Assembly (NCBI GenBank): GCA_032622095.1
Contig: CP136064.1
Coordinates: 132,439,129 to 132,503,128 of the forward strand
Length of the DNA stretch: 64,000 bases
Reading direction: 5' to 3'
Origin: Siphonodentalium dalli
Lineage: Eukaryota > Mollusca > Scaphopoda > Gadilida > Siphonodentaliidae
The notes under the pieces were generated by a model. The model did no database searches, was not told where the DNA came from, and was given only the letters and a program-made list of their open reading frames with translations. Numbering within the stretch: position 1 is the stretch's first letter; every line of letters starts with the position of its first letter. Positions 5,041 through 62,068 of this stretch are shown here, piece after piece. The translations under genes and the position numbers were made by a program.

Positions 5041-5682
5041 TCTATTATATATTTTGGGAAATCTGTGTGTCTGTCTATCTGTCTGTGAGTTCGCGATGGA
5101 CTCGAAACGGCCAAGCCGATTTCGATGAAACTTGGTATGTGGGGACACTTTCGGCCGGGAAGTGGCATGGGCCTATTAATTTGCCCATGCGACGTGACAT
5201 TGACCTTGAAATCGGGTCATTTCAAGGTCAAACGCCCGAATATCACGGGATTTCGATGAAAATTAGTGTCTGGGGATACTTTCGTATGGGGAATGTCGTA
5301 AGCCTATTCGTTTGCCCGTGCGACGTGACCTTGACCTTCAAATCGGGTCAATTCAAGGTCAAATCGCGATTTTTTATGGGATTTCGACGAAATTTGATAC
5401 GTAGGGTTACTTTTGTCCACTGGGTGTTTTGGACGGGTCAAATCGTGACCCCGACCTGACCTTGACCTTCAAAATGATCAATTCGAGGTCAAATCGGGTA
5501 AAACCGGGTGGATTTCGACGGGTACTTTTGTCGGGTACTTTTGTCCGGGCAGTGTTTTGGACGGGTCAAATCGTGACCCCACCTGACCTTGACCTTCAAA
5601 ATGGACAATTCAAGGTCAAATCGCGCAATTCGCCGAAAAGCAGAGGGGAAACAGCCCGGACGAAGTCGGGTCCACCTGCTAG
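5041..5682 (+). mobile_element. Complete solitary non-autonomous Helitron
   Basis: It starts TCTATTATATATTTTGGG and ends with a GC-rich hairpin (CCCGGACGAAGTCGGG) 8 nt before a terminal CTAG. It sits in a TA run with A immediately before and T immediately after, as expected for canonical Helitrons (5' TC, 3' CTRR, A|T target). There is no Rep/helicase gene, so it must be mobilised by an enzyme encoded elsewhere. The 642-bp body consists of a TCTGTCTG-like tract followed by degenerate ~130-bp repeats, each with TGACCTTGACCTT and TTCAAGGTCAAA motifs. Frames at 5010-5749 on both strands are repeat artefacts. Confidence 0.82.
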
Positions 5683-12288: not shown

Positions 12289-13235
12289 CTAGCATGTTAG
12301 CTCGCCACTGGCGGCGTTGGTCCGAACCATGACATTTTGTTTGGCTTTTCAGTGAGTTAAATGTGCCTTTTTAATCAAGAGAAATTATGGTACCCGTCCC
12401 TAAAAGAGGTATGATTTAAGGTACATCGGGAGGAAAAAAATGACCCGATGAAAATTTCCCCCCATTCCTAGGAACGACAGACATAAGAATCACACAACAC
12501 GCATTTTTTAATGAGTTAATTCTGTCTTTTTAATCAAGAGGAATTATGATACCCGTCCCTAAAAGAGGTATGCCAACGATGTCGTTGTTGTTGGCATTGA
12601 CGGTTTGTGGGCCACCCGAAGATTCTCACATTGCCGTAAAGAGAAAATAGGATTGCGTGTATTTAGTAATTTTAACTAATTATTTTCTCGCCAACAATGT
12701 CGTTGTTGTTGGCATTCAAGGCTTGGGGTGACCCCACCTTTACGAAAGCAGTGGAAGTCACGTCAGATTCGGGGACGTATCACAATGCCTCGTATTAACT
12801 GAACTTTCGCCAGCCAGATAAGTCTGCGTGAGTTAGCACGAATTGAGCGGTGTAAGTTTATAGCTTTAAAATATGAATGTATCGAAAATAGACTAAGATT
12901 TTCAGCCATAATAAAAAGTGTATATATCAGAAATTGTAAATTCTATATTTTGGAAGGTATTAGCAAGTTTTGCTCAACGGGTTTAGCAGTTTGAAGTGAA
13001 TATGGATATACAAATATACATATACAGATATAACAAATGTAGAGTTACGCCTCTTGGATCGCGAGCGAATCGATAGCGAAACCCATTTATCCAAACGAAT
13101 GTCGCACCTTAAGGGTTAAGGAGTGCTCAGAGCTTGTCCAAAATGCGACGTCGACGATCCCCGTGTGTTTTTACACTTATATACGAAATGTGAGCTCGAT
13201 CCGCGTAGCCGTTTTCGATTCTATGAAGTATCCAC

Positions 13236-13318
<83 letters not shown>
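12289..13318 (-). mobile_element. Helitron-like unit B1 (3' type I)
   Basis: On the minus strand it ends at CTAG (12292-12289), preceded by a GCCGCCAGTGGCG hairpin that marks type I ends. The body matches units at 59062-60117 and 60822-61981: GTTAATTCTGTCTTTTTAAT, a GTACCCGTCCCTAAAAGAGG block and the near-palindrome GCCAACGATGTCGTTGTTG. The 5' side dissolves into a long TA/CA microsatellite (13239-13318) where B2 begins in the other orientation, so the usual TCTA...TTTTG start is missing. Confidence 0.65.
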
Positions 13319-15252: not shown

Positions 15253-15770
15253 CAAAAGTACCCGACAAAAGTACCCGTCGAAATCCATCAGGTTTTACCC
15301 GATTTGACCTTGAATTGACCATTTTGAAGGTCAAGGTCAGGTCGGGGTCACGATTTGACCCGTCCAAAACACTCAGTGGACAAAAGTAACCCTACGTATA
15401 ACATTTTGTCGAAATCCCATCAAAATTCGCGATTCGACCTTGAATTGACCCGATTTCAAGGTCAATGTCACGTCGCTCGGGCAAACGAATAGGCTTACGA
15501 CACTCCCCATACGAAAGTATCCCTAGACACTAATTTTCATCGAAATCCCGTGATACTCGGGCGTTTGACCTTGAAATGACCCGATTTCAAGGTCAAGGTC
15601 ACGTCGCACGGGCAATTTAACAGGCCCATGCCACTTCCCGGCCGAAAGTACCCCCACATACCAAGTTTCGTCGAAATCGGCTCTGCCGTTTTCGAGTCCA
15701 TCGCGAACACACACACACACACACACCCTCCCTCAGACACACACACATATTTCCCAAAATATATAATAGA
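15253..15770 (-). mobile_element. Helitron-like unit B5, 3' truncated, inverted relative to B4
   Basis: On the minus strand it starts TCTATTATATATTTTGGGAA (15770 leftward), with a CA/TG tract, and carries the AGGTCA-rich body. It stops inside the body at ACTTTTG (15253), without hairpin or CTAG. It abuts B4 tail to tail. Confidence 0.72.
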
Positions 15771-16201
15771 CTAGCTGATGTGCCCGACATTGTCCGGGCT
15801 ATTAAAAATATATATAAGAACAATTTGTACCCGGTAGCTCCACCCGTTTCAATAAGAACAATTTGTACCCGGTAGCTCCACCCATTTCCGAGATCTCGTC
15901 TGCGCATGCGCGAAGCTGGCGTCGCACGGGCTCGGCGACCCGATAAAATTTGTACCCGGCGCAAGATACATTCACATAGCAAATTTCAAGTCGATAGCTC
16001 CACCCGTTTCCGAGATCTCGTCTGCGCATGCGCTGCACGGGCGTCGCACGGGCTCGCCAATACGACAACGACCACCGCCTGGTCAAACTACACACACGTA
16101 CCAAGTTTCGTCCCGATCGGTCGAGAATTGTAGATTTGTATTAAGGACAGACATACAGACAGACAGACATACAGACAGATTGTATCAAAATATATAGTAG
16201 A
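15771..16201 (-). mobile_element. Helitron-like unit B6 (3' type III variant)
   Basis: The minus-strand 3' end is CTAG at 15774-15771 with a CCCGGACAATGTCGGGC hairpin; the 5' end TCTACTATATATTTTGATAC is at 16201. The body has two 122-bp monomers with GCGCATGCGC at 15902 and 16024. A short block (ACAATTTGTACCCGGTAGCT) is duplicated near the 3' end. Confidence 0.75.
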
Positions 16202-16711
16202 CTAGCCGATGAGCCCGACGTTGTCCGGGCTATTCAAAAACCAAATTTCAAGTCGATAGCTCTACCCGTTTCCGAGATCTGGTCTGCGCATGCGCGAAGC
16301 TGGCGTCGCATGGGCTCGGCGACCCGATAAAATTCGTATCCGGGGCAAGATACATTCACATACCAAATTTCAAGTCGATAGCTCCACCCGTTTCCGAGAT
16401 CTCGTCTGCGCATGCGCTAAGCTGGCGTCGCACGGGCTCGGCGACCCGATAAAATTCGTATCCGGGGCAAGATACATTCACATAGCAAATTTCAAGTCGA
16501 TAGCTCCACCCGTTTCCGAGATCTCGTCTGCGCATGCGCGAAGCGGGCGCCACGCGGGCTCGCCAATACGACAACGACGACCGCCTGGTCAAACTACACA
16601 CACGTACCAAGTTTCGTCCCGATCGGTCGAGAATCGTAGATTTGTATCAATGACAGACAAACATACAGACAGACAGACAGACAAACAGAGGTCTTCAAAA
16701 TATATATGAGA
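16202..16711 (-). mobile_element. Helitron-like unit B7 (3' type III)
   Basis: The minus-strand 3' CTAG is at 16205-16202 with a CCCGGACAACGTCGGGC hairpin; the 5' end TCTCATATATATTTTGAAGA is at 16711. Three 122-bp monomers carry GCGCATGCGC at 16286, 16408 and 16530. Near-identical to B2 read in reverse, making it the outer arm of the inverted cluster. Confidence 0.78.
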
Positions 16712-33200: not shown

Positions 33201-33205
33201 TGCGG

Positions 33206-44556: not shown

Positions 44557-45430
44557 CTAGCAGGTTAGCCCGCCACTGGCGGCATTCGTCCCATGACTTT
44601 GTTCGAAAAAGCAATTGCAACAGGTTCCGATACACTTGTGCGTCGAAATCAGCAAGTTTTATCCGATTTGACCTTGAATTGACAATTTTGTAGGTCAAGG
44701 TCAGGTCGTGGTCATGATTTGACCCGTCCAAAACACTCCGCGGACAAAAGTACAGAAATCCGCCAGTTTTACCTTGAATTGACCAGTTCCGCCAAACAAA
44801 TTAAAAATCCGCCAGTTTTACCCGAGTTGACCTTGAATTGATCATTTTGAAGGTCAAGGTCAGGTCGGGGTCACAATTTTAACCCGCCCATGACACTTCC
44901 CGTAGGTAGCAAGTTTGAGCTCAATCGGTTCGAGTCTATAAAGGACACACACATATATATATATATATCATGTGGGGGTACCCGTTTCAAGGTGAATATC
45001 ACCTAGGACGGAAAAACTGACCCGATCCCAGTTCATAGGAAGCCCTAAGTACGTAATAATCACACAACACGCTCATGTCTGGATACCATAAGTACGTAAG
45101 AATCACACAACACGCTCACCGACGCTGACGCAAGTGTACAGACGTAAGAATCACATTACGCACATACGCTCTTTATCAACAACACTGCGGATAGGAACGC
45201 TCTTTAACTATCAACGCGATTAACACACGCAGTGCCGTTTGCGGTGATTTTGATGATTGGGAGTGGAAAATGAGTGCTCAGAGCTTGTCCAAAACGCGAC
45301 GACGGCCATTCCCGTCGTTTTCTACCTTTAGATAGGAAGTTTGAGCTCGATCTGACCAGCCGTTTTTGATTCTATAAAGTACACACACACATATATTTAT
45401 ATACGGAAGTCTCAAAATATATACTAAAGA
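44557..45430 (-). mobile_element. Helitron-like unit A1 (3' type I), right array begins
   Basis: Minus-strand 3' CTAG at 44560-44557; hairpin CCGCCAGTGGCGG 44582-44570; 5' end TCTTTAGTATATATTTTGAG at 45430. The body has TGACCTTGACC motifs (44690-44720, 44860), an AAGTTTGAGCTCAATCGG block twice, and a CA/TA microsatellite near the 5' end. Confidence 0.72.
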
Positions 45431-46510
45431 CTAGCAGGTTAGCCCGCCACTGGCGTGCTTGGTCAGAAACATGACAATGTTTTATGTTGTTAGCAGGTTA
45501 GTCCGCCACTGGCGGCATTGGTCCCATGGCTTTGGTCGATCCATTAATTGTACAGGACCGGGCTACTCAAAAACCAAATTTCGATAGCTCCACCCGTTTC
45601 CGAGATCTGGTCTGCGCATGCGCGAAGCTGGCATCGCACGGGCTCGGCGACCCGATAAAATTCGTATCCGGGGCAAGATACATTCACATACCAAATTTCA
45701 AGTCGATAGCTCCACCCGTTTCCGATATCTCGTCTGCGCATGCGCTGCACGGGCGTTGCACGGGCGCGCCAATACTACAGCGACGACCACCTGGTCAAAC
45801 TACACTCACGTACCAAGTTTCGTCCCGATCGGTCGAGGTGTTGGTATCTGATGCAAAAGACGAAATTGTGAGTGTTGGTCAATAGTCCCCGTCGTGAACC
45901 CCATCCTCGCAAAGAGCGGACAGTCAATTAATCCGTCGTGAACCTCCATCACCAACGCGACGTAAACATGTGTTGCGTTTTAAAAATAGGAAAGCACTTT
46001 CTCTCTGCATAATACATTTCGAGCGATAACGTTTGCGTAAATACGAAATTGTGAGTGTTGGTTTGTAACCGGGATTTCTGAGAAGCATTATGCCTATAAC
46101 TACCCTCCCACATAAGCCCCGACCTAAGTGTCATACATACTATAACAATGATGTTGTAAGAGTACTATGGCATCCAATAAATCTCCCCGCATAGGAAAGC
46201 ACGCAATGTTCCCGTATAACTCTGCAGATGCTAATAACGTTGAATGGAAACAGACGCTCTTTATAGCGATGCGTCAAAAACAAACGCTCATTAAATAATC
46301 ACTTGATTAACCCACGCCGTGCCTTTGCGGTGATTTGGGAGTGGATAAAGGGTGCTCAGAGCTTCTCCAAAACGCGACAACTACGGTGTTCGTGGATTTT
46401 TACACTTATATACGAAAAATGAGCTCGGTGGGTGCAGTCGTTTTCGATTCTATAAAGTACACACACACATATATATATATATACGGAAGTCTCAAAATAT
46501 ATAGTATAGA
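45431..46510 (-). mobile_element. Helitron-like unit A2, chimeric (type I end on a 122-bp-monomer body)
   Basis: CTAG at 45434-45431 with a type I hairpin, then a second, partial type I end at 45492-45530, then GGGCTACTCAAAAACC and two 122-bp monomers (GCGCATGCGC at 45614 and 45736) that elsewhere belong to type III ends. 5' end TCTATACTATATATTTTGAG at 46510. It shows exchange of 3' ends between families. Confidence 0.7.
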
Positions 46511-47190
46511 CTAGCAGGTTAGCCCGCCAATGGCAGCGTTCGTCAGAAACATGACAATTTATAATTTTTTGAATGAATTTTTGAATTTAATTTTTTGAAT
46601 TTAATTTTTGGTTTTTCAATATTTTACCGGATTTGACCTTGAAATGATCATTTTCAAGGTCAAGGTCAGGTCGGGGTCACAATTTAACCGGTCCACGACA
46701 CTTCCCATAGGTAGCAAGTTTGAGCTCAATCAGTTCGAGTCTATAAATGACACACACATATATATCATTTATGGGTACCCGTTTCAAGGTGAAGATCACC
46801 TAGGGCGGAAAATCTGACCCGATCCGCGTTCCTAGGAAGCCCTAAGTACGTAAGAATCACACAACACGCTCATGTCTGTATACTAACGCACACGCCCAGA
46901 CCCAGACGTAAGAATCACATTACGCACATACGCTCTTTATCAACTACACTGCGGATAGGAACGCTCTTTAACTATCAACGCAATTAACACCCGCAGTGCC
47001 GTTTGCGGTGATTTTGATGATTGTGAGTGGAGAATGAGTGCCCAGAGCTTGTCCAAAACGCGACGACGGCAATTCCCGTGGGTTTTTACCCTTAGATAGG
47101 AAGTTTGAGCTCGATCTGACCAGCCGTTTTCGATTCTATAAAGTACACACACATATATTTGTATACGGAAGTCTCAAAATATATAGTAGA
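46511..47190 (-). mobile_element. Helitron-like unit A3 (3' type I)
   Basis: CTAG at 46514-46511, hairpin weakened to CGCCAATGGCAGCG; 5' end TCTACTATATATTTTGAG at 47190. The body resembles A1 (GGTACCCGTTTCAAGGTGAA, GAATCACACAACACGCTCA), with AGGTCA motifs near 46630-46680. Confidence 0.7.
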
Positions 47191-48397
47191 CTAGCATGTT
47201 AGCCCGCCACTGGCGGCATTCGTCCCATGGCTTTGGTCGATCCATTAATTTTAGTTTTTCAATGTAACCCCGTACAGGATCGGGCTACTCAAAAACCAAA
47301 TTTCAAGTCGATAGCTCCACCCGTTTCCGAGATCTGGTCTGCGCATGCGCGAATCTGGCGTCGCACAGGCTCGGCGACCCGATAAAATTCGTATCCGGGG
47401 CAAGATACATTCACATACCAAATTTCAAGTCGATAGCTCCACCCGTTTCCGATATCTCGTCTGCGCATGCGCTGCACGGGCGTCACACGGGCTCGCCAAT
47501 ACGACAGCGACGACCACCTGGTCAAACTACACTCACGTACCAAGTTTCGTCCCGATCGGTCGAGGTGTTGGTATCTGATGCAAAAGACGAAATTGTGAGT
47601 GTTGGTCAATAGTCCCCGCCGTGAACCTCATCGTCGCAAAGAGCGGACAGTCAATTAACCCCGTTGTGAACCTCAATCACCAACGCGACGTAAACATGTG
47701 TTGCGTTCTAAAAATAGGAAAGCACTTTCTCTCTGCATAATTCTGCAGATGCTAATAACGTTGCTCCCCGTAGGTAGCAATATCGTTGTTGTTGATATTT
47801 ACGGCTTGGGGGCTATTTTCTTATTTAGCAAGTTTGAGCTCAATCGGTTAGAGTCTATAAAGGACACACTCATATATATGACACTTCCCGTAGGTAGCAA
47901 GTTTGAGCTCAATCGGCATTCCCTGGAATTTCCCGTAGATTGGCAGATTCCAGTAGCTTTATAACGGTATATCTGGGGAGAAATCTGATGCTATATTCGT
48001 GATTATCTGGGATGATTTCGGTATATACCAATGGTATATACTGTAAAAACAGAGCGCGCCATCCGTGCTCGCAGGGAATAAATTTCGAGCGATAAAGTTT
48101 GCGTTCCCGTATAACTCTGCAGATGCGAATAACGTTGAATGGGAAACAGACGCTCTTTATAGAGATGCGTCAAAAACAAACGCTCATTAAATAATCACTT
48201 GATTAACCCCCGCCGTGCCTTTGCGGTGATTTGAGATTGGAGAACGGGTGCTCTGAGCTTCTCTAAACCGCGACCACGGTCGTGTCGGTGGGATTTGACA
48301 CTTACATAGGAAGTTTGAGCTCAATCTTTACACGCGTTTTGGATTCTATGAAGTACATATATACACACATATATACGAAGTCTCAAAATATATAGTA
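47191..48397 (-). mobile_element. Helitron-like unit A4, chimeric (type I end, 122-bp monomers, dispersed repeat)
   Basis: CTAG at 47194-47191 and a type I hairpin; monomers with GCGCATGCGC at 47341 and 47463; a copy of the ~140-bp dispersed repeat at 47939-48076; 5' end ACTATATATTTTGAGACTTC at 48397 without the TCT start. Much of 47280-47700 parallels A2. Confidence 0.7.
47939..48076. repeat. Dispersed ~140-bp repeat, copy 2
   Basis: ATTGGCAGATTCCAGTAGCT ... GGTATATACC ... GTGCTCGCAGGG, as at 4170-4319. Confidence 0.65.
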
Positions 48398-49293
48398 CTA
48401 GAAGGTGACCCGACTTCGTCCGGGCTATTCAAAAACCAAATTTCAAGTCGATTGCTCCACCCGTTTCCTAGATCTGGTCTGCGCATGCGCGAAGCTGGTG
48501 TCGCACGTGCTCGGCGACCCGATAAAATTCGTATCCGGGGCAAGATACATTCACATACCAAATTTCAAGTCGACAGCTACACCCGTTTCCGAGATATATA
48601 GCCCAATGTCATTTGCGGATACCTCGGCCGGTGATGAGTTAACGCGACACAGTCAAATGCATCGGCAGGGTAAAATTCGTATCCGGGGCAAGATACATTC
48701 ACATACCAAATTTCAAGTCGATAGCTACAACCGTTTCCGAGATATATAGCCCAATGTCATTTGCGGATACCTCGGCCGGTGATGAGTTAACGCGACACAG
48801 TCAAATGCATCGGCAGGGTGAGAGTTAACGTAATCTAACTTTATGACCTCTGACGACGTCATAGAAGTTACGCATTGATTTTATCCTGATAAAAGATCGT
48901 ACCACTTGTACCTAATAATTGAGGCAGATAACTAAAACGGATACATACATATTATATATCGTTGGAAAGATGAAGCCACACAGATTCCAACCGTGTAAAT
49001 TATATGACTGGCAATTTATTATTCGCGCTATATCGAATCGATTTGTGAGCACCGAACTGAAATATATTAGCGCAAAACGGCGTAAAAATAGATTTGACCT
49101 CCGCACGTGAAAAGTTGACCTCGCACGGACAAATAAATATGCCTATGTTCGTCTCCGGCCGAAAATACCCTAAAATACCAAATTTCATCGAAATTGGCTT
49201 AGTCGTTTTCGAGTCCATCGATTTCAAACACACACACACACAAACAAACACACACACAGATCTTTCAAAATATATAATAGATAGATAGATAGA
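48398..49293 (-). mobile_element. Helitron-like unit A5 (3' type II)
   Basis: CTAG at 48401-48398, hairpin CCCGGACGAAGTCGGG. GCGCATGCGC at 48481. A module (CAAGATACATTCACATACCA to AAATGCATCGGCAGGGT) is present twice. The 5' side has GTTTTCGAGTCCATCGA, a CA tract and a (GATA)n extension up to 49293. Near-identical units are A13 and A14. Confidence 0.75.
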
Positions 49294-51405
49294 CTAGCAG
49301 GTTAGCCCGCCACTGGCGGCATTCGTCCCATGGCTTTGTTCGAAAAAGCAATTGCAACAGGTTCCGAGACACTTGTGCTGCATTTGCAGCAAATTTCGGC
49401 AATAGTCAGAAACATGACAATTTTAATTGAATTTTTTGTTTTTCAATGAGTTAATTATTTTGTTTTTCAATGAGTTAATTGTGCTTTTTTAATTTTTTAA
49501 TTGAATTTTTTGTTTTTAAATTTTACCCGATTTTTTTTGGTTTTTCAAGGAGTTAATTGTGCCTTTTTAATTTTGTTTTTCAATTTGACCCGATTTTTTT
49601 TTGTTTTTCAATGAACCCGTCCATGACACTTCCCGTATTTAGCAAGTTTGAGCTCAATCGGTTCGAGTCTATAAAGGACACACACATATATATGACACTT
49701 CCCGTAGGTAGCAAGTTTGAGCTCAATCGGCATTGCCTGGAATTTCCCAGTCAATATTTAGCAAGTTTGAGCTCAATCGGTTCGAGTCTATAAAGGACAC
49801 ACTCATATATATTTGCCGACATTGCCGTGGGGATGCCCGTTCCTACACGCGTTTTCGATTCTATGAAGTACCCACATATATACACACATATTAATAGTAG
49901 ATTGGCAGATTCCAGTAGCTTTATAATGGTATATCTGGGGAGAAATCTGATGCTATATTCGTGATTATCTGGGATGATTTCGGTATATACTGTAAAAACA
50001 GAGCGCGCCATCCGTGCTCGCAGGGAATAAATTTCGAGCGATAACGTTTGCGTTCCCGTATAACTCTGCAGATGCGAATAACGTTGAATGGGAAACAGAC
50101 GCTCTTTATAGAGACTGGCGGCATTCGTCCCATGGCTTTGTTTCAGAAACATGACATTTTTGTAATTATTTATTTTTTATTTATTTTTGTTTTTTATTTT
50201 TGAATATGAATTTAATGTTTTTTAAATTTAATATATTTTGTTTCTGAATTGTTAATTTTTTTTTATTTTAAATTGTTTTAATTAAATTGTAAATTGTTTG
50301 AATTAATTTTTTTGTTTCTGGCGGAAAAATTTACCCGTAGAAATCCCCCCCTTCCTAGGAACGACAGACAACGCATTCTTTGTTTCGTGATCGAAGAAGT
50401 GTCAAACTTGACAGTAGTTAGGTACGCTATTCAGGTGCGCAAAGAGATACCACAAGCTATCTTATTGGATCAGAGCTCTCGCTAGCAACCAATGAAAACA
50501 CGCGATACAACCGGTAACCGGATGTAAACTAATACACGTGAATCGGTCCAATTTGGAAAAGGTCGTTTGTATTTTGGTAAGATTAAATATTTTAAGATTA
50601 AAGAATCATAAAAGTACCCAATATAATTTTTTTCTGAATTTTTTCCGAAACATAACAGAAACATGACATTTGTTTTATTTTTATTTATATATTTTTTTAA
50701 TTTTAACATGACATTTTAATATTATTTTAATGTTTTTTAAATGTAATATATTTTTTCTTCTTATTTTTTTCCGAAACATAACAGAAACATGACATTTTTT
50801 TAATTATTTTGTTTTTATTTATATATTTTTTAAATTTTAATATTAATTTAATGTTTTTAAAATTTAATTTATGTATTTTTTCAATTTTTTAATATTTAAT
50901 TCTTTTTTATAATTTTAATTTTTTTTTTATTGTTAATTTTTTTTTTTTTCTGGAGGAAAAAACCGATGAATCCCCCTTCCTAGGAACGACTTTCAGTGAG
51001 TTAATTCATGGTACCCGTCCTAAACATTTCGAGCGATAACGTTTTGTTGAACCCCGTAACGTTTTGTTGATGTGTAAACATGCCCCCCCCCCGTTCATAG
51101 GAACGACAGGCAATCTCTCTGCATAATATTTCGAGCTATTTCGAGCGATAACGTTTTGTTGGATAACGTTTTGTTGAATTGTAAACATGTCCCCCGTTCT
51201 CAGACTCCCGTCATACAGATAAGTAGAGTTATGCCTCTTGGATCTGCATAGATAGCGAAAAGACGCTCTTTATATAAACACTGCGGGAAACGAACGCTCT
51301 TTATATATCAACGCTATTAACCCCGAAGTGCCGATTACACTTAAATACGAAGTTTGAGCTCAATCTGAACACGCGTTTTGGATTCCATGAAGTACACATA
51401 CACAA

Positions 51406-51448
<43 letters not shown>

Positions 51449-51473
51449 CGAAAGTCTCAAAATATATAGTAGA
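49294..51473 (-). mobile_element. Helitron-like unit A6 (3' type I), longest, compound
   Basis: CTAG at 49297-49294 with a type I hairpin; 5' end TCTACTATATATTTTGAG at 51473. The first ~450 bp are near-identical to unit A11. Inside lie the dispersed repeat (49901-50025), a partial second type I 3' end (50112-50150), and A/T low-complexity DNA (50157-50950). Probably two or three units fused with lost junctions. Confidence 0.65.
49901..50025. repeat. Dispersed ~140-bp repeat, copy 3
   Basis: As 47939-48076 but with one GTATATAC instead of two. Confidence 0.65.
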
Positions 51474-52349
51474 CTAGCAGGTTAGCCCGCCACTGGCGTG
51501 GTTGGTCAGAAACATGACATTTTTTTAAATTATTTTGTTTTTATTTATTTATTTTTTTTAATTTGTTTTAATATTAATATTTTTTCTGAATTTTTTAATA
51601 TTTATTTAATTTGTTCTTTTTTTTATTTTAAATTGTTTTAATTAAATTTTGTGTTTCTGGCGGAACAATTTACCCGATGAAATCCCCCCCCCCCCCTTCC
51701 TATGAACGACAGACAACGCATTCTTTGTTTTGTTTTTTTTTAACCTGCCCGTACCCGTCCTAATGTCGTGAAATCTCTCTGCATAATATTTCGAGCGATA
51801 ACATTGCATTGAATTGAAAACAAACACTTCCCGTCGTGAAATCTCTCTACGATAACATTGCATTGAATTGAAAACAAACGCTTCCCGTCGGGAAATCTCT
51901 CTGCATAATATTTCGAGTCTGCCGTACCCGTCCTAATGTCGTGAAATCTCTCTGCATAATATTTCGAGCGATAACATTGCATTGAATTGAAAACAAACGA
52001 TTCCCGTTGTGAAATCTCTCTGCATAATATTTCGAGCGACAGACTACAATCAGACTTCCCCATACAGATAAGTAGATAGCGAAAACGACGCTCTTTATAT
52101 AGACACTGCGGAAAACGAACGCTCTTTATATATCAACGCTATTAACCCCGAAGTGCCGATTGCGGTGATTTTGATTATTGGGAAGGGAGAAACGGTGCTC
52201 TGAGCTTCTCCAAAACGCGACCACGGCGGTGTCCGTGGGATTTTACACTTATATACGAAATTTGAGCTCCATCAGTCAACGTGTTTTCGATTCTATGAAG
52301 TACACACACACACACACATATATATACGGAAGTCTAAAAATATATAGTA
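51474..52349 (-). mobile_element. Helitron-like unit A7 (3' type I)
   Basis: CTAG at 51477-51474 with a type I hairpin; 5' end TACTATATATTTTTAGACTT at 52349. The body has T/A low-complexity DNA and four diverged repeats of ATTTCGAGCGATAACATTGC-ATTGAATTG (51785-52030). Confidence 0.68.
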
Positions 52350-52845
52350 TAGCCGATGAGCCCGACGTTGTCCGGGCTATTCAAAAACCAAATTTCGATA
52401 GCTCCACCCGTTTCCGAGATCTGGTCTGCGCATGCGCGAAGCTGGCGTCGCATGGGCTCGGCGACCCGATAAAATTCGTCTCCGGGGCAAGATACATTCA
52501 CATAGCAAATTTCAAGTCGATAGCTCAACCCGTTTCCGAGATCTCGTCTGCGCATGTGCGAAGCTGGCGTAGCACGGGCTCGGCGACCCGATAAAATTCG
52601 TATCCGGGTCAAGGTACATTCACATAGCAAATTTCAAGTCGATAGCTCCACCCGTTTCCGAGATCTCGTCTGCGCATGCGCAAAGCTGGCGCCACACGGG
52701 CTCGCCAATACGACAACGTCGACTGCCTGGTCAAACTACAGACACGTACCATGTTTCGTCCCGATCGGTCGAGAATCGTAGATTTGTATAAATGACAGAC
52801 AGACAAACAAACAGACAGACAGAGGTCTTCAAAATATATATGAGA
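52350..52845 (-). mobile_element. Helitron-like unit A8 (3' type III)
   Basis: The 3' end reads CGGCTA without the final G, with the CCCGGACAACGTCGGGC hairpin; 5' end TCTCATATATATTTTGAAGA at 52845. Three 122-bp monomers: GCGCATGCGC at 52428, a one-base variant near 52550, and 52672. Same subfamily as B2 and B7 of the left cluster. Confidence 0.75.
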
Positions 52846-53641
52846 CTAGAAGGTGACCCGACTTCGTCCGGACTTTGACGGTTTGACCTTGAATTGACCA
52901 TTTTGAAGGTCAAGGTCAGGTGGGGTCAAACACCAACACCCCAAAAATGGTGGAAATCGGCCCAGCGGATACCGGGAAATCGGCCCAGCGGATACCGAGA
53001 TACCCTAAAAATCCGTAAAAATCCGCTAGTTTAACCCGATTTGATTTCCACTCAAGTATATAAACGCGCCTCATATACACACGCTCATTAATTATCAAGT
53101 TTCAACTTAAAGATAAATTACCATCGGTGCCCGAGATATCGCCAAGACGTCTGAAACAGTCAAATGCATCGGCCGGTTAAGCGTTAACGTGATCTAACGT
53201 TATGACCTCTAACGACGTCATAGAAGTTACGCATTGTTTTTATCCTGATGGAAGATAGTACCACTTCTTCTTGATAATTGAGGCAGATAACTAAAACGGA
53301 TACATACGCATTATATATCGTTGGAAAGAGGAAACACGAAATATTCTCACAGTGTTTATATTATGACTGGCATTTTATTATTCGCGCTGTTTCGAATCGA
53401 TTTGTAAGCACCGAACTCAAATGAAAGTCCCGTAACACAGCGTAAAAACAGATTTGACCTCGGCACGTGAAAAGTTGACCTCGGATCTGAAAATTAATAT
53501 GCCTATGCCACTTCCCGACCGATAGTAGCCTCACATTCGAAGTTTCATCGAAATCGGGTCGGCCGTTTTCGAGTTCATCGCGAACACACAGACAGACACA
53601 CCACACACGCACAGATCTTCCTAAAATATATAATAGATAGA
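52846..53641 (-). mobile_element. Helitron-like unit A9 (3' type II)
   Basis: CTAG at 52849-52846, hairpin GTCCGGACGAAGTCGGG; 5' end TCTATCTATTATATATTTTA at 53641. The body starts with AGGTCA motifs, then a segment resembling the 5' half of A5 (GGCAGATAACTAAAACGGAT, GTTGGAAAGA). Confidence 0.7.
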
Positions 53642-54095
53642 CTAGCAGGTTAGCCCGCCACTGGCGGCGTTGGTCAGAAACATGACCTTTTTTTGGCTTT
53701 TCAACGAGTTAATTGTGCCTTAATTGTGCCTTAATTGTGTCGATAGCTCCACCCGTTTCCGAGATCTCGTCTGCGCATGCGCTGCACGGGCGTCGCACGG
53801 GCTCGCCAATACGACAACGACGACCACCTGGTCAAACTACACTCACGTACCAAGTTTCGTCCCGATCGATCGAGGTGTTGGTATCTGATGCAAAAGACGA
53901 AATTGTGAGTGTTGGTTTGTAACCGGGATTTCTGAGAAGCATTATGCTTATATCCACACTAACTACCCCCCTAAGCCATGGCCTAGGTGTCATACATACT
54001 ATAACAATGATGTTGTAAGAGTACTATGGCATCCAATAAATCTCCCCGCATAGGAAACCACTCAAAAGTATTGTTCCCGTATATCTCTCTGCAGA

Positions 54096-54960
54096 CAGGG
54101 GGGCAGGGCCGGAAAAAATAACTGCAGACACAGGGTGGAAAAAACTGTTTTCTTCGGTTTGGGTACCCCCCCCCCCCAAACTGCAAAAACTGCAGTTTGT
54201 TTTCACTGACCATTTGCCCCCCCCCCCCCCAGAAAAAAAAAATCTACCCCAGCCGGACAACAACTCGGTTTGACCGGAAACCGAAAAAAACACCAGAGCA
54301 TACAATTCACGAGAAGGTGCTTGGTAACTTAGTTTAGATTATTATGAATAAAATGGTCATTGTCTACCAGTAGAACGCAGATTTGTACCTCGTGATGTCA
54401 TGACATGTACAAACATGTATATTGGTGATCGCAACGCTTTGTATGCACTTAAAAAAATGACAACTAGTCATTACCTCGACTTTGAAAAAGATGCAAATGA
54501 GATGAGTGAGATACCAGCATATAACTGTTTTCTGATACCATTGGAGGAGAAATTGTTTAATACATGGGATAGTTCTGCAGTAAAAATTTGCCAGATAAGC
54601 GATCGCAGGGTAGAATTCTGCATTCGACTGGTAGACACTGACATAGTCGGCATTATTAAGAGGGTTAATGGGGTCAATATCACATGTAAACCAAGACAGT
54701 GGTTATCCAAAATTGTTTTAGGTGGATTGTACTACTCATGTATGACCATGTATATATGATTTGGATATTAAGGTTAATCCATATTCTATAAAATGAGAGA
54801 AAATTGAATTTGTGAGTCTGAAAATACATATTTGGAAAAAAATTACATGCAAATTTTTTCTGACAACCCCCCCTAAATGAATAAGGAAAAAATTTACGCC
54901 TATGTACCCCCCACCCCCGGTACGTTGTGTCCCGCAGTTTTTTTCCGCCCCCCCCCCCTG
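54096..54960. mobile_element. 865-bp CAGGGGG...CCCCCTG (hAT-like) element inside a Helitron unit
   Basis: The ends CAGGGGGGCAGGGCCGGAAA and the reverse complement of CAGGGGGGGGGGCGGAAAAA are related. CTGCAGA flanks both sides (54089-54095 and 54961-54967), and homologous Helitron units show the empty site. Same terminal style as 30804-31355 but a different interior, including a 119-codon frame. A 7-bp duplication is near the 8 bp usual for hAT, so the superfamily is tentative. Confidence 0.72.
54400..54759 (+). CDS. Hypothetical 119-aa frame inside the hAT-like element
   Basis: ATG at 54400 (second ATG at 54415), TGA at 54757. The product has mixed, protein-like composition without low complexity: SHYLDFEKDANEMSEIP, then IPLEEKLFNTWDSSAVK, then RVEFCIRLVDTDIVGIIKRV near the middle. 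No transposase motif, signal peptide or clear membrane span was recognised. It occupies about 40% of an otherwise non-coding element, so it may be a captured host exon or a chance frame. No expression signal is visible. Confidence 0.35.
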   Translation: MTCTNMYIGDRNALYALKKMTTSHYLDFEKDANEMSEIPAYNCFLIPLEEKLFNTWDSSAVKICQISDRRVEFCIRLVDTDIVGIIKRVNGVNITCKPRQWLSKIVLGGLYYSCMTMYI

Positions 54961-55247
54961 CTGCAGATGCTAATAACGTTGAATGGTAAACACACGCTCT
55001 TTATAGCGATGCGTCAAAAACAAACGCTCATTAAATTATCACTTGATTAACCACCGCAGTGCCGTTTTTGTGACTGAGATTGGAGAACGGGTGCTCTGCG
55101 CTTCTCCAAAATGCGACGCCGACGGTGTCCGTGGATTTTTACACTTATATACGAAATTTGAGCTCAATCTGTCCACGCGTTTTCGATTCTATGAAGTACA
55201 CATATACACACATATATATATATTCATAGTTCTCAAAATATATAGTA

Positions 55248-55898
55248 CTAGCAGGTTAGCCCGCCACTGGCGGCATTCGTCCCATGGCTTTGTTCGAAAA
55301 AGCAATTGCAACAGGTTCCGAGACACTTGTGCTGCATTTGCAGCAAATTTCGGCAATAGTCAGAAACATGACAATTTTAATTGAATTTTTTGTTTTTCAA
55401 TGAGTTAATTATTTTGTTTTTCAATGAGTTAATTGTGCTTTTTTAATTTTTTAATTGAATTTTTTGTTTTTAAATTTTACCCGATTTGTTTTTGTTTTTC
55501 AAGGAGTTAATTGTGCCTTTTTAATTTTGTTTTTCAATTTTACCCGATTTGTTTTTGTTTTTCAATGAACCCGTCCATGACACTTCCCGTATTTAGCAAG
55601 TTTGAGCTCAATCGGTTCGAGTCTATAAAGGACACACACATATATATGACACTTCCCGTAGGTAGCAAGTTTGAGCTCAATCGGCATTCCCTGGAATTTC
55701 CCAGTCACCAACGCGGCGTAATTTTGGTACATATATAGAGACCAATTGTCCATCGGCTGTCATGTGTAGTAAAGATGTCTTATAAGCCGACATTGCCGTG
55801 GGGATGCCCGTTCATACACGCGTTTTCGATACTATGAAGTACCCACATATATACACACATACATATATATATACGGAAGTCTCAAATTATATAGTAGA
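55248..55898 (-). mobile_element. Helitron-like unit A11 (3' type I)
   Basis: CTAG at 55251-55248 and a type I hairpin; 5' end TCTACTATATAATTTGAG at 55898. It carries the GCAATTGCAACAGGTTCCGA block and AAGTTTGAGCTCAATCGG repeats. Near-identical over about 450 bp to the start of A6. Confidence 0.75.
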
Positions 55899-56487
55899 CT
55901 AGCAGGTTAGCCCGCCACCGGCGGCTTGTCCGAAACATGACATTTTTTTATATTTTTTTTTAATTTTTAGCTCCACGCGTTTCAATAAGAAAAATTTGTA
56001 CCCGGTAGCTCCACCCGTTTCCGAGATCTGGTCTGCGCATGTGCGAAGCTGGCGTCGCACGGGCTCGGCGACCCGATAAAATTTGTACCCGGCGCAAGAT
56101 ACATTCACATAGCAAATTTCAAGTCGATAGCTCCACCGTTTCCGAGATCTCGTCTGCGCATGCGCTGCACGGGCGTCGCACGGGCTCGCCAATACGACAA
56201 CGACCACCGCCTGGTCAAACTACACACACGTACCAAGTTTCGTCCCGATCGGTCCAGAATCGTAGATTTGTATGAAGTACCCACACACACACACAAACAT
56301 AAATATATAAGAGAGATATGTAAATTAGATAGATTGTAACACAATATATAGGGAGAGATATGTAAATGATCTACACACCATTACTGGTGTTTGTGGGGTA
56401 TATCAATACTCATTCACGATCATATCATTGAGGTCCGGAGGGTGTGGGCTATCTCTCGAATACACAGAGTTCTCAAAATATATAGTA
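55899..56487 (-). mobile_element. Helitron-like unit A12, chimeric (type I end, 122-bp monomers)
   Basis: CTAG at 55902-55899, hairpin changed to CCGCCGGTGGCGG (symmetry kept); monomers with a variant near 56034 and GCGCATGCGC at 56156; 5' end ACTATATATTTTGAGAACTC at 56487, preceded by non-Helitron sequence (56290-56450). Confidence 0.7.
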
Positions 56488-57202
56488 CTAGAAGGTGACC
56501 CGACTTCGTCCGGGCTATTAAAAAACCAAATTTCAAGTCGATTGCTCCACCCGTTTCCTTGATCTGGTCTGCGCATGCGCGAAGCTGGTGTCGCACGTGC
56601 TCGGCGACCCGATAAAATTCGTATCCGGGGCAAGATACATCCACACACCAAATTTCAAGTCGATAGCTACACCCGTTTCCGAGATATATAGCCCAATGTC
56701 ATTTGCGGATACCTCGGCCGGTGATGAGTTAACGCGACACAGTCAAATGCATCGGCAGGTGAGAGTTAACGTAATCTAACTTTATGACCTCTGACGACGT
56801 CATGGAATTTACGCATTGATTTTATCCTGATAAAAGATCGCACCACTTGTACCTAATAATTGAGGCAGATAACTAAAACGGATACATACATATTATATAT
56901 CGTTGGAAAGATGAAGCCACACAGATTCTAACCGTGCAAATTATATGACTGGCAATTTATTATTCGCGCTATATCGTATCGATTTGTGAGCACCGAACTG
57001 AAATATATTAGCGCAAAACGGCGTAAAAACAGATTTGACCTCCGCACGTGAAAAGTTGACCTCGCACGGACAAATAAATATGCCTATGTTCGTCTCCGGC
57101 CGAAAATACCCTAAAATACAAAATTTCATCGAAATTGGCTTAGTCGTTTTCGAGTCCATCGATTTCAAACACACACACAGATCTTTCAAAATATATAATA
57201 GA
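56488..57202 (-). mobile_element. Helitron-like unit A13 (3' type II)
   Basis: CTAG at 56491-56488 with the CCCGGACGAAGTCGGG hairpin; GCGCATGCGC at 56571; 5' end TCTATTATATATTTTGAAAG at 57202. Near-identical to A5 but with the doubled module present once. Confidence 0.77.
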
Positions 57203-58040
57203 CTAGAAGGTGACCCGACTTCGTCCGGGCTATTAAAAAACCAAATTTCAAGTCGATTGCTCCACCCGTTTCCTAGATCTGGTCTGCGCATGCGCGAAGC
57301 TGGTGTCGCACGTGCTCGGCGACCCGAGAAAATTCGTATCCGGGGCAAGATACATTCACATACCAAATTTAAAGTCAATATCTCAACCCGTTTCCGAGAT
57401 CTCGTCTGCGCATGCGCGAAGCTGGCGTCGCACGTGCTCGGCGACCCGATAAAATTCGTATCCGGGGCAAGATACATTCACATACCAAATTTCAAGTCGA
57501 TAGCTACACCCGTTTCCGAGATATATAGCCCAATGTCATTTGCGGATACCTCGGCCGGTGATGAGTTAACGCGACACAGTCAAATGCATCGGCAGGGCGA
57601 GAGTTAACGTAATCTAACTTTATGACCTCTGACGACGTCATAGAAATTACGCATTGATTTTATCCTGATAAAAGCATCGTACCACTTGTACCTAATAATT
57701 GAGGCAGATAACTAAAACGGATACATACATATTATATATCGTTGGAAAGATGAAGCCACACAGATTCGCGCTATATCGAATCGATTTGTGAGCACCGAAC
57801 TGAAATATATTAGCGCAAAAACGGCGTAAAAATAGATTTGACCTCCGCACGTGAAAAGTTGACCTCGCACGGACAAATAAATATGCCTATGTTCGTCTCC
57901 GGCCGAAAACACATCCAAATACCAAATTTCATCGGAATTGGCTTAGTCGTTTTGGAGTCCATCGATTTCAAACACACAAACAAACACACAAACTTATAAA
58001 CTTACACACACACAGATCTTTCAAAATATATAATAGATAG
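57203..58040 (-). mobile_element. Helitron-like unit A14 (3' type II)
   Basis: CTAG at 57206-57203 with the same hairpin; two 122-bp monomers (57286, 57408); 5' end ATCTATTATATATTTTGAAA, with a GATA step, at 58040. Third member of the A5/A13 group, with a small deletion around 57770. Confidence 0.77.
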
Positions 58041-58178
58041 ATTGGCAGATTCCAGTAGCTTTATAACGGTATATCTGGGGAGAAATCTGATGCTATATTC
58101 GTGATTATCTGGGATGATTTCGGTATATACCAAAGGTATATACTGTAAAAACATGGCGCGCCATCCGTGCTCGCAGGG
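58041..58178. repeat. Dispersed ~140-bp repeat, copy 4
   Basis: As 47939-48076. It stands exactly between the 5' end of A14 and the truncated unit that follows. Confidence 0.68.
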
Positions 58179-59061
58179 TTGGTCAGAAACAAATGTTTTT
58201 TTTTATTTAATTTATGATTTTTATTCTAATTGACACGGGCTCGCTATAACTCCGGTATCACTAACGTACGCGGCATTGGAAGGGTCATGTTAACTTCCGC
58301 CTGGACCCACGTGGCGTGACGTAATTCACAACCACGTGTATTTACCTCGCGACCGCGACACACACAATGGCCCGATAATGGGCACACGTTCCCTGGCATT
58401 TCCCAGAAGATATTCATGGGGAGGTCAAGTGACCAATTTTGAAATTTGCTGGTCGCATTCGTCTGTATGTCTGAGGAATTCTCGGCTAGATATTGTTACC
58501 AACATGACATATTTAAATTAATCCCGCCGTGTACCCCAACACCAACGGCAACGCGACATGTGCTGCGTTCTAAAAATAGGTCGATTGCAGTGGATTCGTA
58601 CAGATGACGAAATATGAGTGCGATAGATAATATTGTTGATCGAAAGCATTTGAATTAATACGTCGCAAAACTCGCCTTGATGTTGGCTAATAGATATTTG
58701 TCCATGCTAGGTGTTGGGAATGTCGTCACACAACACGCTCATGTCTGCATACAGTCTTACACGCACACGCCGAGACCCAGACGTAAGAATGACATTAGGC
58801 ATATACGCTCTTTATCAACTACAATGCGATAGGAACGCTCTTTAACTATCAACGCGATTATCCCCCGCCGTGCCTTTGCTGTGATTTGGGAGTGGATAAA
58901 GGGTGCTCAGAGCTTCTCCAAAACACGACTACGGCGGTGTCGGTGGGATTTTACACTTACATACGAAAATTGAGCTCAATCTGTACACGCGTTTTGGATT
59001 CCATGAAGTACACACACACACATATATATACGGAGTTGTCAAAATATATAGTATAGATAGA
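58179..59061 (-). mobile_element. Helitron-like unit A15, 3' end lost
   Basis: It resumes at TTGGTCAGAAACA, a sequence normally following the type I hairpin, and ends with the 5' terminus CTATCTATACTATATATTTT at 59061. The missing CTAG end is replaced by the dispersed repeat. A mid part (58200-58560) is GC-richer and not found in other units. Confidence 0.6.
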
Positions 59062-60117
59062 CTAACAGGTTAGCCCGCCACTGGCGGCGTTGGTCCGAAA
59101 CATGACATTTTTTTGGCGTTTCAATGAGTTAATTGTGCCTTTTTAATCAAGAGAAATTATGGTACCCGTCCCTAAAAGATTTAAGGTACATCGGGCGGAA
59201 AGAACTGACCCGATGAAAAATTGTTTAATCAAGAGGAATTATGATACCCGTCCCTAAAAGAGGTATGCCAACGATGTCGTTGTTGTTGGCATTCACGGCT
59301 TGGGGCCACCCGAAAATTCTCACATTGCCGTAAAGAGAAAATAGCATTGTGTGTTTTCTCGCCAACAAAGTCGTTGTTGTTGGCATTCACGGCTTGGCGA
59401 GTCCAACAATGTCGTTGTTGTTGGCATTCACGGCTTGAGGCAGTGGAAGTCCCGTCAGATTATGGGACGTATCACAGTGCCTCGTATTTACTAAATTTTA
59501 GCAGCCATATAAGCTGCGTTCTCACCAACGTCGTTGTTGTTGGCATTCACGGCTTGGCGAGTCCAACAATGTCGTTGTTGTTGATATTCACGACTTGAGG
59601 CAGTGGAAGTCCCGTCAGATTCTGGGACGTTTCACAGTGCCTCGTATTTACTAAATTTTAGCAGCCATATAAGGTGCGTGAGTTAGCACGAATTGAGGGG
59701 TGTAAGTTTAGAGCTTGTTTATATGAATGTATCGAAAATAGACTAAGATTTTCAGCCGTAACAAGAAATGTATATATCAGAAAATGTAAATTCTATATTT
59801 TGGAAGGTATTATTAGCAAGTTTTGGCTCAACGGGTTTAGCAGTTTGAAGTGAATATGGATATAAAAATATACATATACAGATATAAAAAATGTAGAGTT
59901 ACGCCTCTTGGATCGCGAGTGAATCGATAGCGACAAACATCGTATCGAAACGAAATGTCGCACTTTATGGGTCAAGGAGTGCTCGTGTGTTTTTACACTT
60001 ATATACGAAATTTGAGCTCGATCCCACCAGCCGTTTTCGATTCTATGAAGTACCCACATACACACATATATATACACATATATACATATATACGGAAGTC
60101 TCAAAATATATAGTAGA
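59062..60117 (-). mobile_element. Helitron-like unit A16 (3' type I, CTAA variant of the internal motif)
   Basis: The plus strand begins CTAACAGGTTAGCCCGCCAC, so the terminal tetranucleotide is TTAG rather than CTAG. 5' end TCTACTATATATTTTGAG at 60117. The body is like B1: AACGATGTCGTTGTTGTTGG repeated several times (59269-59590) and a GGAAGTCCCGTCAGATT block twice. Confidence 0.72.
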
Positions 60118-60821
60118 CTAGCAGGTTAGCCCGCCACTGGCGGCATTCGTCCCATGGCTTTGTTCGAAAAAGCTTTATTTTTCAATTCGTCGAAATCCGC
60201 CAGTTTTACCCGATTTGACCTTGAATTGATCATTTTGAATGTCAAGGTCAGGTCGGGGTCACAATTTAACCCGCCCATGACACTTCCCGTAGGTAGCAAG
60301 TTTGAGCTCAATCGGTTCGAGTCTATAAAGGACACACACATATATATATCATTTGTGGGTACCCGTTTCAAGGTGAAGATCACCTAGGACGGAAAAACTG
60401 ACCCGATCCCAGTTCCTAGGAAGCCCTAAGTATGTAAGAATCACACAACACGCTCATGTCTGGATACCAAGTACGTACGAATCACACAACATGCTCACCG
60501 ACGCTGACGCCCATGTACAGACGTAAGAATCACATTACGCATATACGCTCTTTATCGACTACACTGCGGATAGGAACGCTCTTTAACTATCAACGCGATT
60601 AACCACCGCCGTGCCGTTTGCGGTGATATTGATGATTGGGAGTGGAGAATGAGTGTTCAGAGCTTGTCCAAAATGCGACTTGGAAGATCCCCGTGGGTTT
60701 TTACCCTTATATACGAAATTTGACCTCGATCCGCGCAGCCGTTTTAGATTCTATGAAGTACCCACATACACACATATATATATATACACACATATACGGA
60801 AGTCTCAAAATATATAGGAGA
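60118..60821 (-). mobile_element. Helitron-like unit A17 (3' type I)
   Basis: CTAG at 60121-60118 and a type I hairpin; 5' end TCTCCTATATATTTTGAG at 60821. The body resembles A1 and A3, with AGGTCA motifs at 60210-60255. Confidence 0.75.
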
Positions 60822-61885
60822 CTAGCAGGTTAGCCCGCCACTGGCGGCGTTGGTCCGAAACATGACATTTTTTTGGCTTTTCAATGAGTTAATTGTGCCT
60901 TTTTAATCAAGAGAAATTATGGTACCCGTCCCTAAAAGAGGTATGATTTAAGGTACAAACTGACCCGATGAAAAATTCCCCCATTCCTAGGAACGACAGA
61001 CATAAGAATCACACAACACGCATTTTTTAATGAGTTAATTCTGTCTTTTTAATCAAGCGGAATTATGATACCTGTCCCTAAAAGAGGTACGCCAACGATG
61101 TCGTTGTTGTTGGCATTCACGACTTGGGGCAACACGCATTTTTTAATGAGTTAATTCTGTCTTTTTAATCAAGAGGAATTACGATACCTGTCCCTAAAAG
61201 AGGTATGCCAACGATGTCGTTGTTGGCATTCACGGCTTGGTGGCCACCCGAAAATTCTCGCCCGAAGATTCTCACATTGCCGTAAAGAGAAAATTAGCAT
61301 TGTGTGGATTTAGTAATTTGAACTAATTATTTTCTCGCCAACAATGTCGTTGTTGTTGGCATTCACGGCTTGGGAGTGACCCCCACCTTTACGAGATGGT
61401 CAAAGGAGAAGGCAGTGGAAGTCCCGTCATATTCTGGGACGTATCGCACTGCCTGGCATTTACCGAATTTCAGCAGCCATATAAGCTGCGTGAGTTAGCA
61501 CGATTTGAGGGGTGTATGTTTATAGTTTGTTTATATGAATGTATCGAAAATAGACTAAGATTTTCAGCCGTAACAAGAAATGTATATATCAGAAAATGTA
61601 ACTTCTATATTTTGGAAGGTATTAGCAAGTTTTGGCTCAACGGGTTTACCAGTTTGAAGTGAATATGGACATAAAAATATACATATACAGATATAACAAA
61701 TGTAGAGTTACGCCTCTTGGATCGCGAGCGAATAGATAGCGAAACCCATCGTATCGAAACGAAGGTCGCACTTTAAGGGTCAAGGAGTGCTCAGAGCTCG
61801 TCCAAAATGTTTTTACACTTATATACGAAATTTGAGCTCGATCCGCGCAGCTGTTTTCGATTCTATGAAGTACCCACATACACAC

Positions 61886-61916
<31 letters not shown>

Positions 61917-61981
61917 TATATATATATATATATATACGTAGTTCTAAAATATATATACGTAGTTCTCAAATATATAGGAAA
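60822..61981 (-). mobile_element. Helitron-like unit A18 (3' type I)
   Basis: CTAG at 60825-60822 and a type I hairpin; 5' end TTTCCTATATATTTGAGAAC at 61981. The body is like B1 and A16, with a TA/CA microsatellite (61880-61945) and a duplicated TACGTAGTTCT step at the 5' end. Confidence 0.75.
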
Positions 61982-62068
61982 CTAGCTAGTGGGCCCGACT
62001 TCGTCCGGGCTGTTTCCCCTCTGCTATCATCGAAAGGCGCGATTTGACCTTGAATTGACAATTATGAT
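61982..62068 (-). mobile_element. Helitron-like 3' fragment A19 (3' type IV), array ends
   Basis: CTAGCTAGTGGGCCCGACTT: the hairpin CCCGGACGAAGTCGGGC is followed by GGGAAACAGC-type sequence and one AGGTCA motif, then unrelated DNA. Only the 3' end is present. Confidence 0.7.

Follow-up and report, generated by a model that had tools for sequence, protein, structure and literature searches.

A polar stack of non-autonomous Helitrons in Siphonodentalium dalli, probably built by insertion at resident 5' ends

A 64,000-nucleotide stretch of the genome of the scaphopod Siphonodentalium dalli (contig CP136064.1, positions 132,439,129 to 132,503,128; the window) contains an array of short transposable elements arranged head to tail on the minus strand at positions 44557-62068. 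These elements are non-autonomous canonical Helitrons (TC...hairpin...CTAG) and not Helentrons. We consider it likely that the array is a polar stack that was built by insertion of one copy at a time at the 5' ends of resident copies. The stacking, its single orientation, its genome-wide scale, the target motif, the match between the register of that motif and the 5' ends of the elements, a cut at TCTA/TACT (a slash marks a cut or a junction), and displaced TCTA tetranucleotides are directly supported, and the same genome contains one autonomous RepHel element whose termini are related to those of the units. Head-to-tail Helitrons are usually attributed to rolling-circle replication that did not terminate, but targeted insertion explains this array better.

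Stacked units in the window and across the genome

Boundaries between elements delimit 18 head-to-tail units, U01 (starting at 61981) through U18 (ending at 44557), together with a 3' stub (Table 1). The first reading of this DNA, made from its sequence only, had proposed about nineteen units, which is borne out as 18 units plus a stub of ca. 90 bp ending at 61982, and the eleven junctions that it listed were all exact to the base. The units are 496 to 2180 bp long. CTAG/T was found at 15 of the 18 junctions from stub/U01 to U17/U18. The deviant junctions were TTAG/T at U03/U04, CTA/T at U11/U12, and CCAA/TC at U04/U05, which is without a Helitron 3' end. The downstream unit began with TC at 13 of the 18 junctions, with TACT at four (U07, U09, U12, and U15), and with TTTCC at one (U01). 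Terminal motifs were two to three orders of magnitude more frequent in the window than in shuffled sequence. For example, CTAGTCTANTATATATTTTG (three or fewer mismatches) had 11 matches versus 0.05 expected, seven in the array and four in smaller stacks, the 3' end GGCGGGCTAACCTGCTAG had 14 versus 0.01 expected, and TATATATTTTGAGACTTC had 17 versus 0.10 expected.

The 3' ends are of two types. Type 3A is CCGCC-AGT-GGCGG followed by 9 nt and CTAG, and type 3B is a GC stem around GGACGAAGT followed by 7 or 8 nt and CTAG. DNA folding predicted stems of CCGCC with GGCGG and of CCCG with CGGG (AGCCCG with CGGGCT in U11). Among the five 3' ends folded, which represent three distinct sequences, one was clearly more stable than shuffled sequences (z of -2.05) and the others had z scores of -0.73 and -0.34.

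Several units carry additional features. A module of ca. 140 bp ending in ...CTACTGGAATCTGCCAA (module M) is followed each time by TCTA, at 58042, 49902, and 47940 on the minus strand. It occurs at U04/U05, in U13, and in U15, as well as upstream of a start at another locus (L065), as if the module and a Helitron 5' end were a fixed composite that spread. U17 has two 3A ends 59 bp apart (45431-45507), the first of which is mutated (GGCGGACTAACCTGCTAA) and ends at 45490; a terminator skip and a stub captured downstream are both possible sources. The insert of ca. 870 bp in U09 (54097-54962) has CAGGGGG...CCCCCTG ends and TCTGCAG repeated on both sides, and it resembles a hAT-type element nested in a Helitron unit.

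The identification as Helitrons is supported by the termini, by the target, and by an autonomous element with related termini. In filled-site flanks, all 12 genome copies with a readable non-stacked 3' end joined A and T, where A was a selection criterion but T was not; this is the A/T target of canonical Helitrons, which insert without duplicating the target, and not the T-rich TT target of Helentrons and HINEs. The four starts in the window that lack a preceding Helitron 3' end (5041, 13319, 16711, and 58041) all follow A. One solitary copy in the window (S1) lies between A and T.

A Pfam search of the genome gave at least 151 Helitron_like_N matches, and several of these are in open frames of more than 1,600 codons. 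The single autonomous element that was read end to end (L089, at C1:13743912) is an 8,675-bp RepHel element within a same-strand run of 19 3A ends. CTAG and a short TCTATCTTCTA lead stand before it, and it ends in CTAG with the next unit directly after. Its first 349 bp are 83-85% identical to U11, P1, and N1, and its last 32-33 bp are 97% identical. U11 forms one family with P1 and N1, and the ends of U11 are related to those of the autonomous element. The 1,614-codon open frame of L089 has Helitron_like_N, PIF1, and STPR matches; no endonuclease was among the Pfam matches of this frame, and a C-terminal endonuclease is a trait of Helentrons and HINEs. Residues 157-1587 of the protein can be aligned with Helraiser (7lcc; E=2.4e-271). 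An autonomous Rep/helicase element of the kind that the sequence-only reading had proposed to look for was found, with 3B-family ends, and for this one element the evidence favours a Helitron over a partner of another class.

Stacking is not confined to the window. The genome that was searched comprises 2.23 Gb in 9 contigs and contains 10,907 exact 3A ends, compared with 0 for a reversed-pattern control. TC directly follows 6,725 of them (61.7%). Among the first 100 listed 3A ends, all on C1, 50 consecutive pairs were less than 5 kb apart, versus 2.1 expected under uniform placement, and all 50 were on the same strand; pairs farther apart were on the same strand in 24 cases and on opposite strands in 25 (n=49). 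When the first 20 3A ends were inspected with their flanks, a Helitron start followed 10 of them by eye, 7 of which begin with TC. The automatic label gave 11 of 20, from which inspection removed L090 and L108 and to which it added L096. The exact 5' end TCTACTATATATTTTGAGACTTCC has 1,369 copies, of which 737 are preceded by GCTAG and 367 by A; the remaining 265 probably include copies with 3B ends upstream. Stacking is at least as common as non-stacking for these ends.

The array had also been described as a satellite of unusual size, and neither part of that description held. The units are not homogenised, so the term satellite does not fit, and the size is not unusual for this genome, in which C1:13715580-13757769 has 19 exact 3A ends on one strand. 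Repeated spacings were seen only in other stacks: C1:63814215-63823545 (1475/2452), C1:258716666-258730138 (ca. 1900/1955), C1:49026576-49042241 (1301/1118), and C2:25962051-26007559. Such regular spacings suggest later tandem duplication and, possibly, satellites in the making.

Target motif and the 5' ends of resident copies

To describe the target, position +1 was defined as the first base after CTAG. CTAG-reading 3' ends were collected from the window and the fetched loci, and removal of near-identical flanks left 31 stacked and 32 non-stacked flanks. This split followed a stricter rule than the label for the 20 ends above, and ends not reading CTAG were dropped. T was first in all 32 non-stacked flanks and TC was first in none. 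TATA started at +3 to +8 in 26 of the 32; in windows of the same size at greater distance, the counts were 4, 2, 2, and 3 of 32. A start exactly at +6 was seen in 18 of the 32, whereas 5,000 shuffles averaged 1.2 and never exceeded 7. The 11 flanks that were not found via a 5'-end pattern had TATA at +3 to +8 in 10 cases and exactly at +6 in 6. Without a shared host repeat, the counts were 21/27 and 14/27, and without both that repeat and two (TA)n runs they were 19/25 and 14/25. The insertions at L022, L024, L031, and L094 (perhaps also L033) lie in the same AT-rich stretch of a repeated host element (TATATAATGTGATCTGGGGGTTCGAAA). Several non-stacked flanks look, by sequence alone, like textbook TATA boxes (TATATAAAAGG and CTATAAAAAGG).

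The 5' ends of the elements carry the same motif. TATA is at +6 in five of the six 5'-end forms checked (TCTACTATATAT, TCTATTATATAT, TCTCATATATAT, TCTCCTATATAT, and TACTATATAT), and these 5' ends thus mimic the target. The sixth form (TCTATACTATATAT) has TATA at +3, +8, and +10 but not at +6. This is the form with an internal cut at TCTA/TACT, which puts TATA back at +6: there were 721 copies of CTAG/TACTATATATTTTGAGACTTCC versus 775 copies of intact TCTATACT. TACT ends that are preceded by G follow CTAG in 721 of 767 cases, and those preceded by A follow TCTA in 775 of 825; TACT thus seldom, if ever, forms a terminus by itself. A cut at the next A/T (CTAG/TATATTTTG) was not found among 100 listed of 1,701 junctions.

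If a copy enters at TCTA/TACT, the displaced TCTA would be expected on the 5' side of the upstream unit. Over the window and wider loci, with near-identical junctions dropped, the upstream unit carried an extra TCTA at 4 of the 7 TACT junctions and at 3 of the 65 other junctions (Fisher p=0.001); a hypergeometric estimate for the window alone was not significant. The three non-TACT units with an extra TCTA are U05 and U10, for each of which a TACT unit lies two units downstream, and a third in locus L002, which also contains a TACT junction. The displaced TCTA indicates that the upstream unit entered the 5' end of the downstream unit.

The most likely mechanism is as follows. The transposase, perhaps carrying a circular or single-stranded copy, would favour an A/T before a TATA-like run and join the 3' end of the element (CTAG) to the T of an A/T about five bases before the TATA-like motif (A/TNNNN-TATAWA). 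The STPR repeats near its N-terminus (residues ca. 148-218) might serve to read the TATA motif, as proteins with STPR repeats bind AT-rich DNA. The 5' ends TCTAC-TATATAT, TCTAT-TATATAT, TCTCA-TATATAT, and TCTCC-TATATAT have the target motif in the same register, so that every resident copy would be a preferred target. A new copy would then enter at the A/T just before or just inside a resident 5' end, in the same orientation, and its 5' edge would serve as the next target. Stacks would grow mainly on the 5' side and the family would pile up rather than scatter.

More tentatively, and with somewhat less than even confidence, the Helitron 5' terminus may be a homing site that evolved or was kept as a copy of the transposase's target motif, by which the family directs new copies to old ones. 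If this is true, the stacks would act as a safe harbour of the family's own making in which host genes are spared. Skipping between stacked ends would yield chimeric elements, and the stacks would furnish raw material for satellites. The 5' end of bat Helitrons is TC followed by a TATATAA run. If bat Helitrons behave likewise, self-mimicry could be a general cause of arrays for which missed termination is the current explanation. Insertion at resident 5' ends would provide a rule for Helitron placement, a reason for clustering, and a source of chimeras, and other genomes can be examined for its signature (TATA at +6, a TCTA/TACT cut, and displaced TCTA). Because this genome has thousands of stacked ends and several RepHel copies with long open frames, target choice by an HUH transposase is testable in it.

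Evidence against 5'-end insertion and alternative origins

Several observations weigh against growth of the stacks by single insertions at 5' ends. The non-stacked flanks are few (32), 21 of the 32 come from loci that were found via the 5'-end pattern, and four to five lie within one host repeat family. The termini of L089 match the 3B family and not the commoner 3A end. Out-of-register junctions (CTAG/TCTATACT, TATA at +8) made up 11 of 100 listed of the 1,701 junctions. Three of the seven TACT junctions (U08/U09, U06/U07, and L014) lack an extra TCTA just upstream; at U06/U07 the extra TCTA is one unit farther upstream, at U05, U08/U09 has none, and the TACT in L014 may be host DNA. The divergence of units at 5' edges did not differ from that of internal units in a comparison of 60 loci (4 dropped as duplicates), and relative age thus provides no support for 5'-side growth. 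Some neighbours are also close kin: U05-U06 and U12-U13 are adjacent best partners, neighbours are alike in the small stacks (P2-P3, 0.86; N1-N2, 0.78), and the pair U15-U16 is similar, member by member, to U17-U18 (0.75 and 0.74). A host site at a resident 3' end keeps its TATA motif, so that some stacking at 3' ends is possible, as is some movement of ready-made blocks, given the recurrence of module M and the composites U13 and U17.

Insertion at the 3' end of a resident (CTAG/T), where the host TATA persists and stacks grow 3'-ward, is an unlikely alternative. It yields the identical CTAG/TC junction, the host TATA motif is still present after the last unit, and the divergence comparison is not contrary to it. 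However, it requires a G/T target, whereas the 12 non-stacked copies rejoin A (selected) and T, and the four starts in the window without a preceding Helitron 3' end all follow A. Furthermore, it produces neither CTAG/TACT, with its 721 copies, nor TCTA before the upstream unit. It is because of the TACT counts that 3'-end insertion was dropped as the likeliest route.

It is also very improbable that composite transposition, in which blocks of two or more stacked units moved after a terminator skip and part of the array arrived ready made, is the main explanation. Terminator bypass has been shown for Helraiser (PMC4778049), and the composite U13, module M before TCTA in U04/U05, U13, and U15, and the two 3' ends of U17 are what it would leave. 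However, it covers few units and does not account for most junctions, the strand rule, or the register.

Expansion of a few founding units by unequal crossing-over or segmental duplication is just as improbable. The regular spacings at the three C1 stacks listed above with their intervals and the ordered resemblance of U15-U16 to U17-U18 are in its favour. However, U18 is less similar to U16 than to U02 (0.88), and the two pairs start differently, with TACT and TCTAC in U15-U16 versus TCTATACT and TCTTTAG in U17-U18. Overall similarity was independent of adjacency: mean similarity was 0.236 for the 17 adjacent pairs versus 0.237 for all 153 pairs (P=0.49 by shuffling the order of 18 units, similarity scores uncapped), and P was 0.43 for 19 refined units (composites split, U09 insert left out, scores capped at 1). 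Best partners may be distant, as in U06-U14 (eight units apart) and U02-U18 (sixteen units apart). Duplication is also unable to create the first stacks.

On the adjacency test, both a concatemer and a tandem-duplication origin of the whole array were rejected. Rolling-circle concatemers from a missed 3' terminator, the explanation offered for bat and plant arrays (PMC4067079 and PMC5876387), are very improbable here. They would account for head-to-tail order without spacers but predict nearest-kin neighbours, which are not the rule in this array. Two different 3' families alternate, CTAG is present at 15 of 18 junctions, and the TACT junctions are left unexplained. The sequence-only reading had offered either successive rolling-circle events with missed termination or repeated insertion next to earlier ends. 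The second route is supported. For this array the first is not, because shuffling the order of the units leaves neighbours just as similar and because 15 of the 18 junctions have an exact CTAG.

Known systems and other features of the window

A close parallel to these elements is Helraiser/Helibat of bats, which shares TC...CTAG ends, an A/T target with an AT-rich 3' side, and a RepHel protein. Helraiser prefers A/T within AT-rich sequence that is most marked toward the 3' flank of the transposon, and in bats the 5' end of one copy is sometimes directly joined to the 3' end of another (PMC4778049). By analogy, the AT-rich preference of Helraiser would be a weaker form of the TATA-register rule. 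In S. dalli, in contrast, abutting is the majority state for the 3' end with 10,907 exact copies, and the TATA-like target is in a fixed register that most of the elements' own 5' ends match; the literature excerpts contain no such statement.

Pacific oyster Helitrons are likewise short (mean, 1,092 bp) and non-autonomous, with TC/CTAG ends, a hairpin, and 86% of copies at A/T (PMC7992393). The excerpts of that paper report that no autonomous element was found, in contrast to the Helitron_like_N matches here, and do not describe stacking or a target register. Tandem Helitrons of plant centromeres also form long head-to-tail runs; these are 3'-truncated, with inner copies that lack 3' ends (PMC5148889, PMC8268682, and PMC7492417), whereas the array keeps CTAG at most junctions and its neighbours are often of different families. 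FoHeli in Fusarium, with non-canonical termini and target, likewise inserts into itself and so gives rise to composites and additional 5' ends; the cases are few, and genome-wide stacking is not described in the excerpts of PMC5148889. Adjacent or tandem Helitrons have been reported in bats, maize, rice, Drosophila, silkworm, and fungi (PMC4067079, PMC5148889, and PMC4778049). The S. dalli stacks differ from these in that stacking is the majority state, neighbours are of mixed kinship, inner 3' ends are mostly intact, and the 5' end matches the element's own target. A search of open-access PMC text, which included excerpts of PMC9646362 and PMC2374699, found no description of a Helitron with a 5' end that resembles its target motif. 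An exact-pattern search for relatives elsewhere gave no match in viral_contigs or genome_contigs.

Table 1. Helitron units in the window
Unit	Positions	Strand	Length (bp)	Remarks
U00	61982..62068	-	ca. 90	3B-type 3' stub upstream of stack; 5' limit approximate; ends ...AGCCCGGACGAAGTCGGGCCCACTAGCTAG
U01	60822..61981	-	1160	5' variant TTTCC; 3A end
U02	60118..60821	-	704	3A end; best partners U18, U16
U03	59062..60117	-	1056	3A end mutated to TTAG; kin of U01
U04	58042..59061	-	1020	5' TCTATCTATACT; lacks a Helitron 3' end and breaks off with CCAA at the start of U05
U05	57203..58041	-	839	3B end; one extra TCTA on 5' side
U06	56488..57202	-	715	3B end; nearest is U14, 8 units off
U07	55899..56487	-	589	TACT start (TCTA displaced); 3A end
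U08	55248..55898	-	651	3A end; related to 3' part of U13
U09	53642..55247	-	1606	TACT start; 3A end; hAT-like insert at ca. 54097-54962
U10	52846..53641	-	796	3B end; one extra TCTA
U11	52350..52845	-	496	5' TCTCATATATATTTTGAAGACC; 3B-type end ...CATCGGCTA
U12	51474..52349	-	876	TACT start; 3A end
U13	49294..51473	-	2180	Composite of U13a and U08-like 3' part, joined CCAA/TCTA near 49902
U14	48398..49293	-	896	3B end; three extra TCTA
U15	47191..48397	-	1207	TACT start; 3A end
U16	46511..47190	-	680	3A end
U17	45431..46510	-	1080	5' TCTATACT; two consecutive 3A ends
U18	44557..45430	-	874	3A end, then host T (TTAGTTATACAATG)
N1-N3	15253..16711	-		Third stack, three units; tail to tail with second stack
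P1-P3	13319..15252	+		Second stack, three head-to-tail units; 3B-type ends
B1	12289..13300	-		3A-type unit of U01/U03 family; head to head with P1; 5' limit approximate
S1	5041..5682	+		Solitary copy; A/TCTATTATATATTTTGG...CTAG/T

The region 12289-16711 of the window thus comprises a 3A unit, a plus-strand stack, and a minus-strand stack, and its inner 3' ends are damaged. Internal repeats of 122 bp and 131 bp form short runs in several units (for example, at 13476-13793, 13963-14372, and 52395-52704). Units with such repeats recall the satellite-bearing Helitrons and Helentrons of oysters.

Outside the Helitrons, a Pfam search of ten open frames in the window gave only weak endonuclease/exonuclease matches, at 2-826 on the minus strand (PF14529 and PF03372, below cut-off), and this fragment is probably a LINE remnant. 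Two 102-codon open frames on the minus strand, 34136-34441 and 35027-35332, lie 891 bp apart and are identical over their first 60 residues; the pair is a local tandem duplication. Minisatellites of CCATGGTAACACCACGGT-like units occupy 26734-27098 and 33203-33737.

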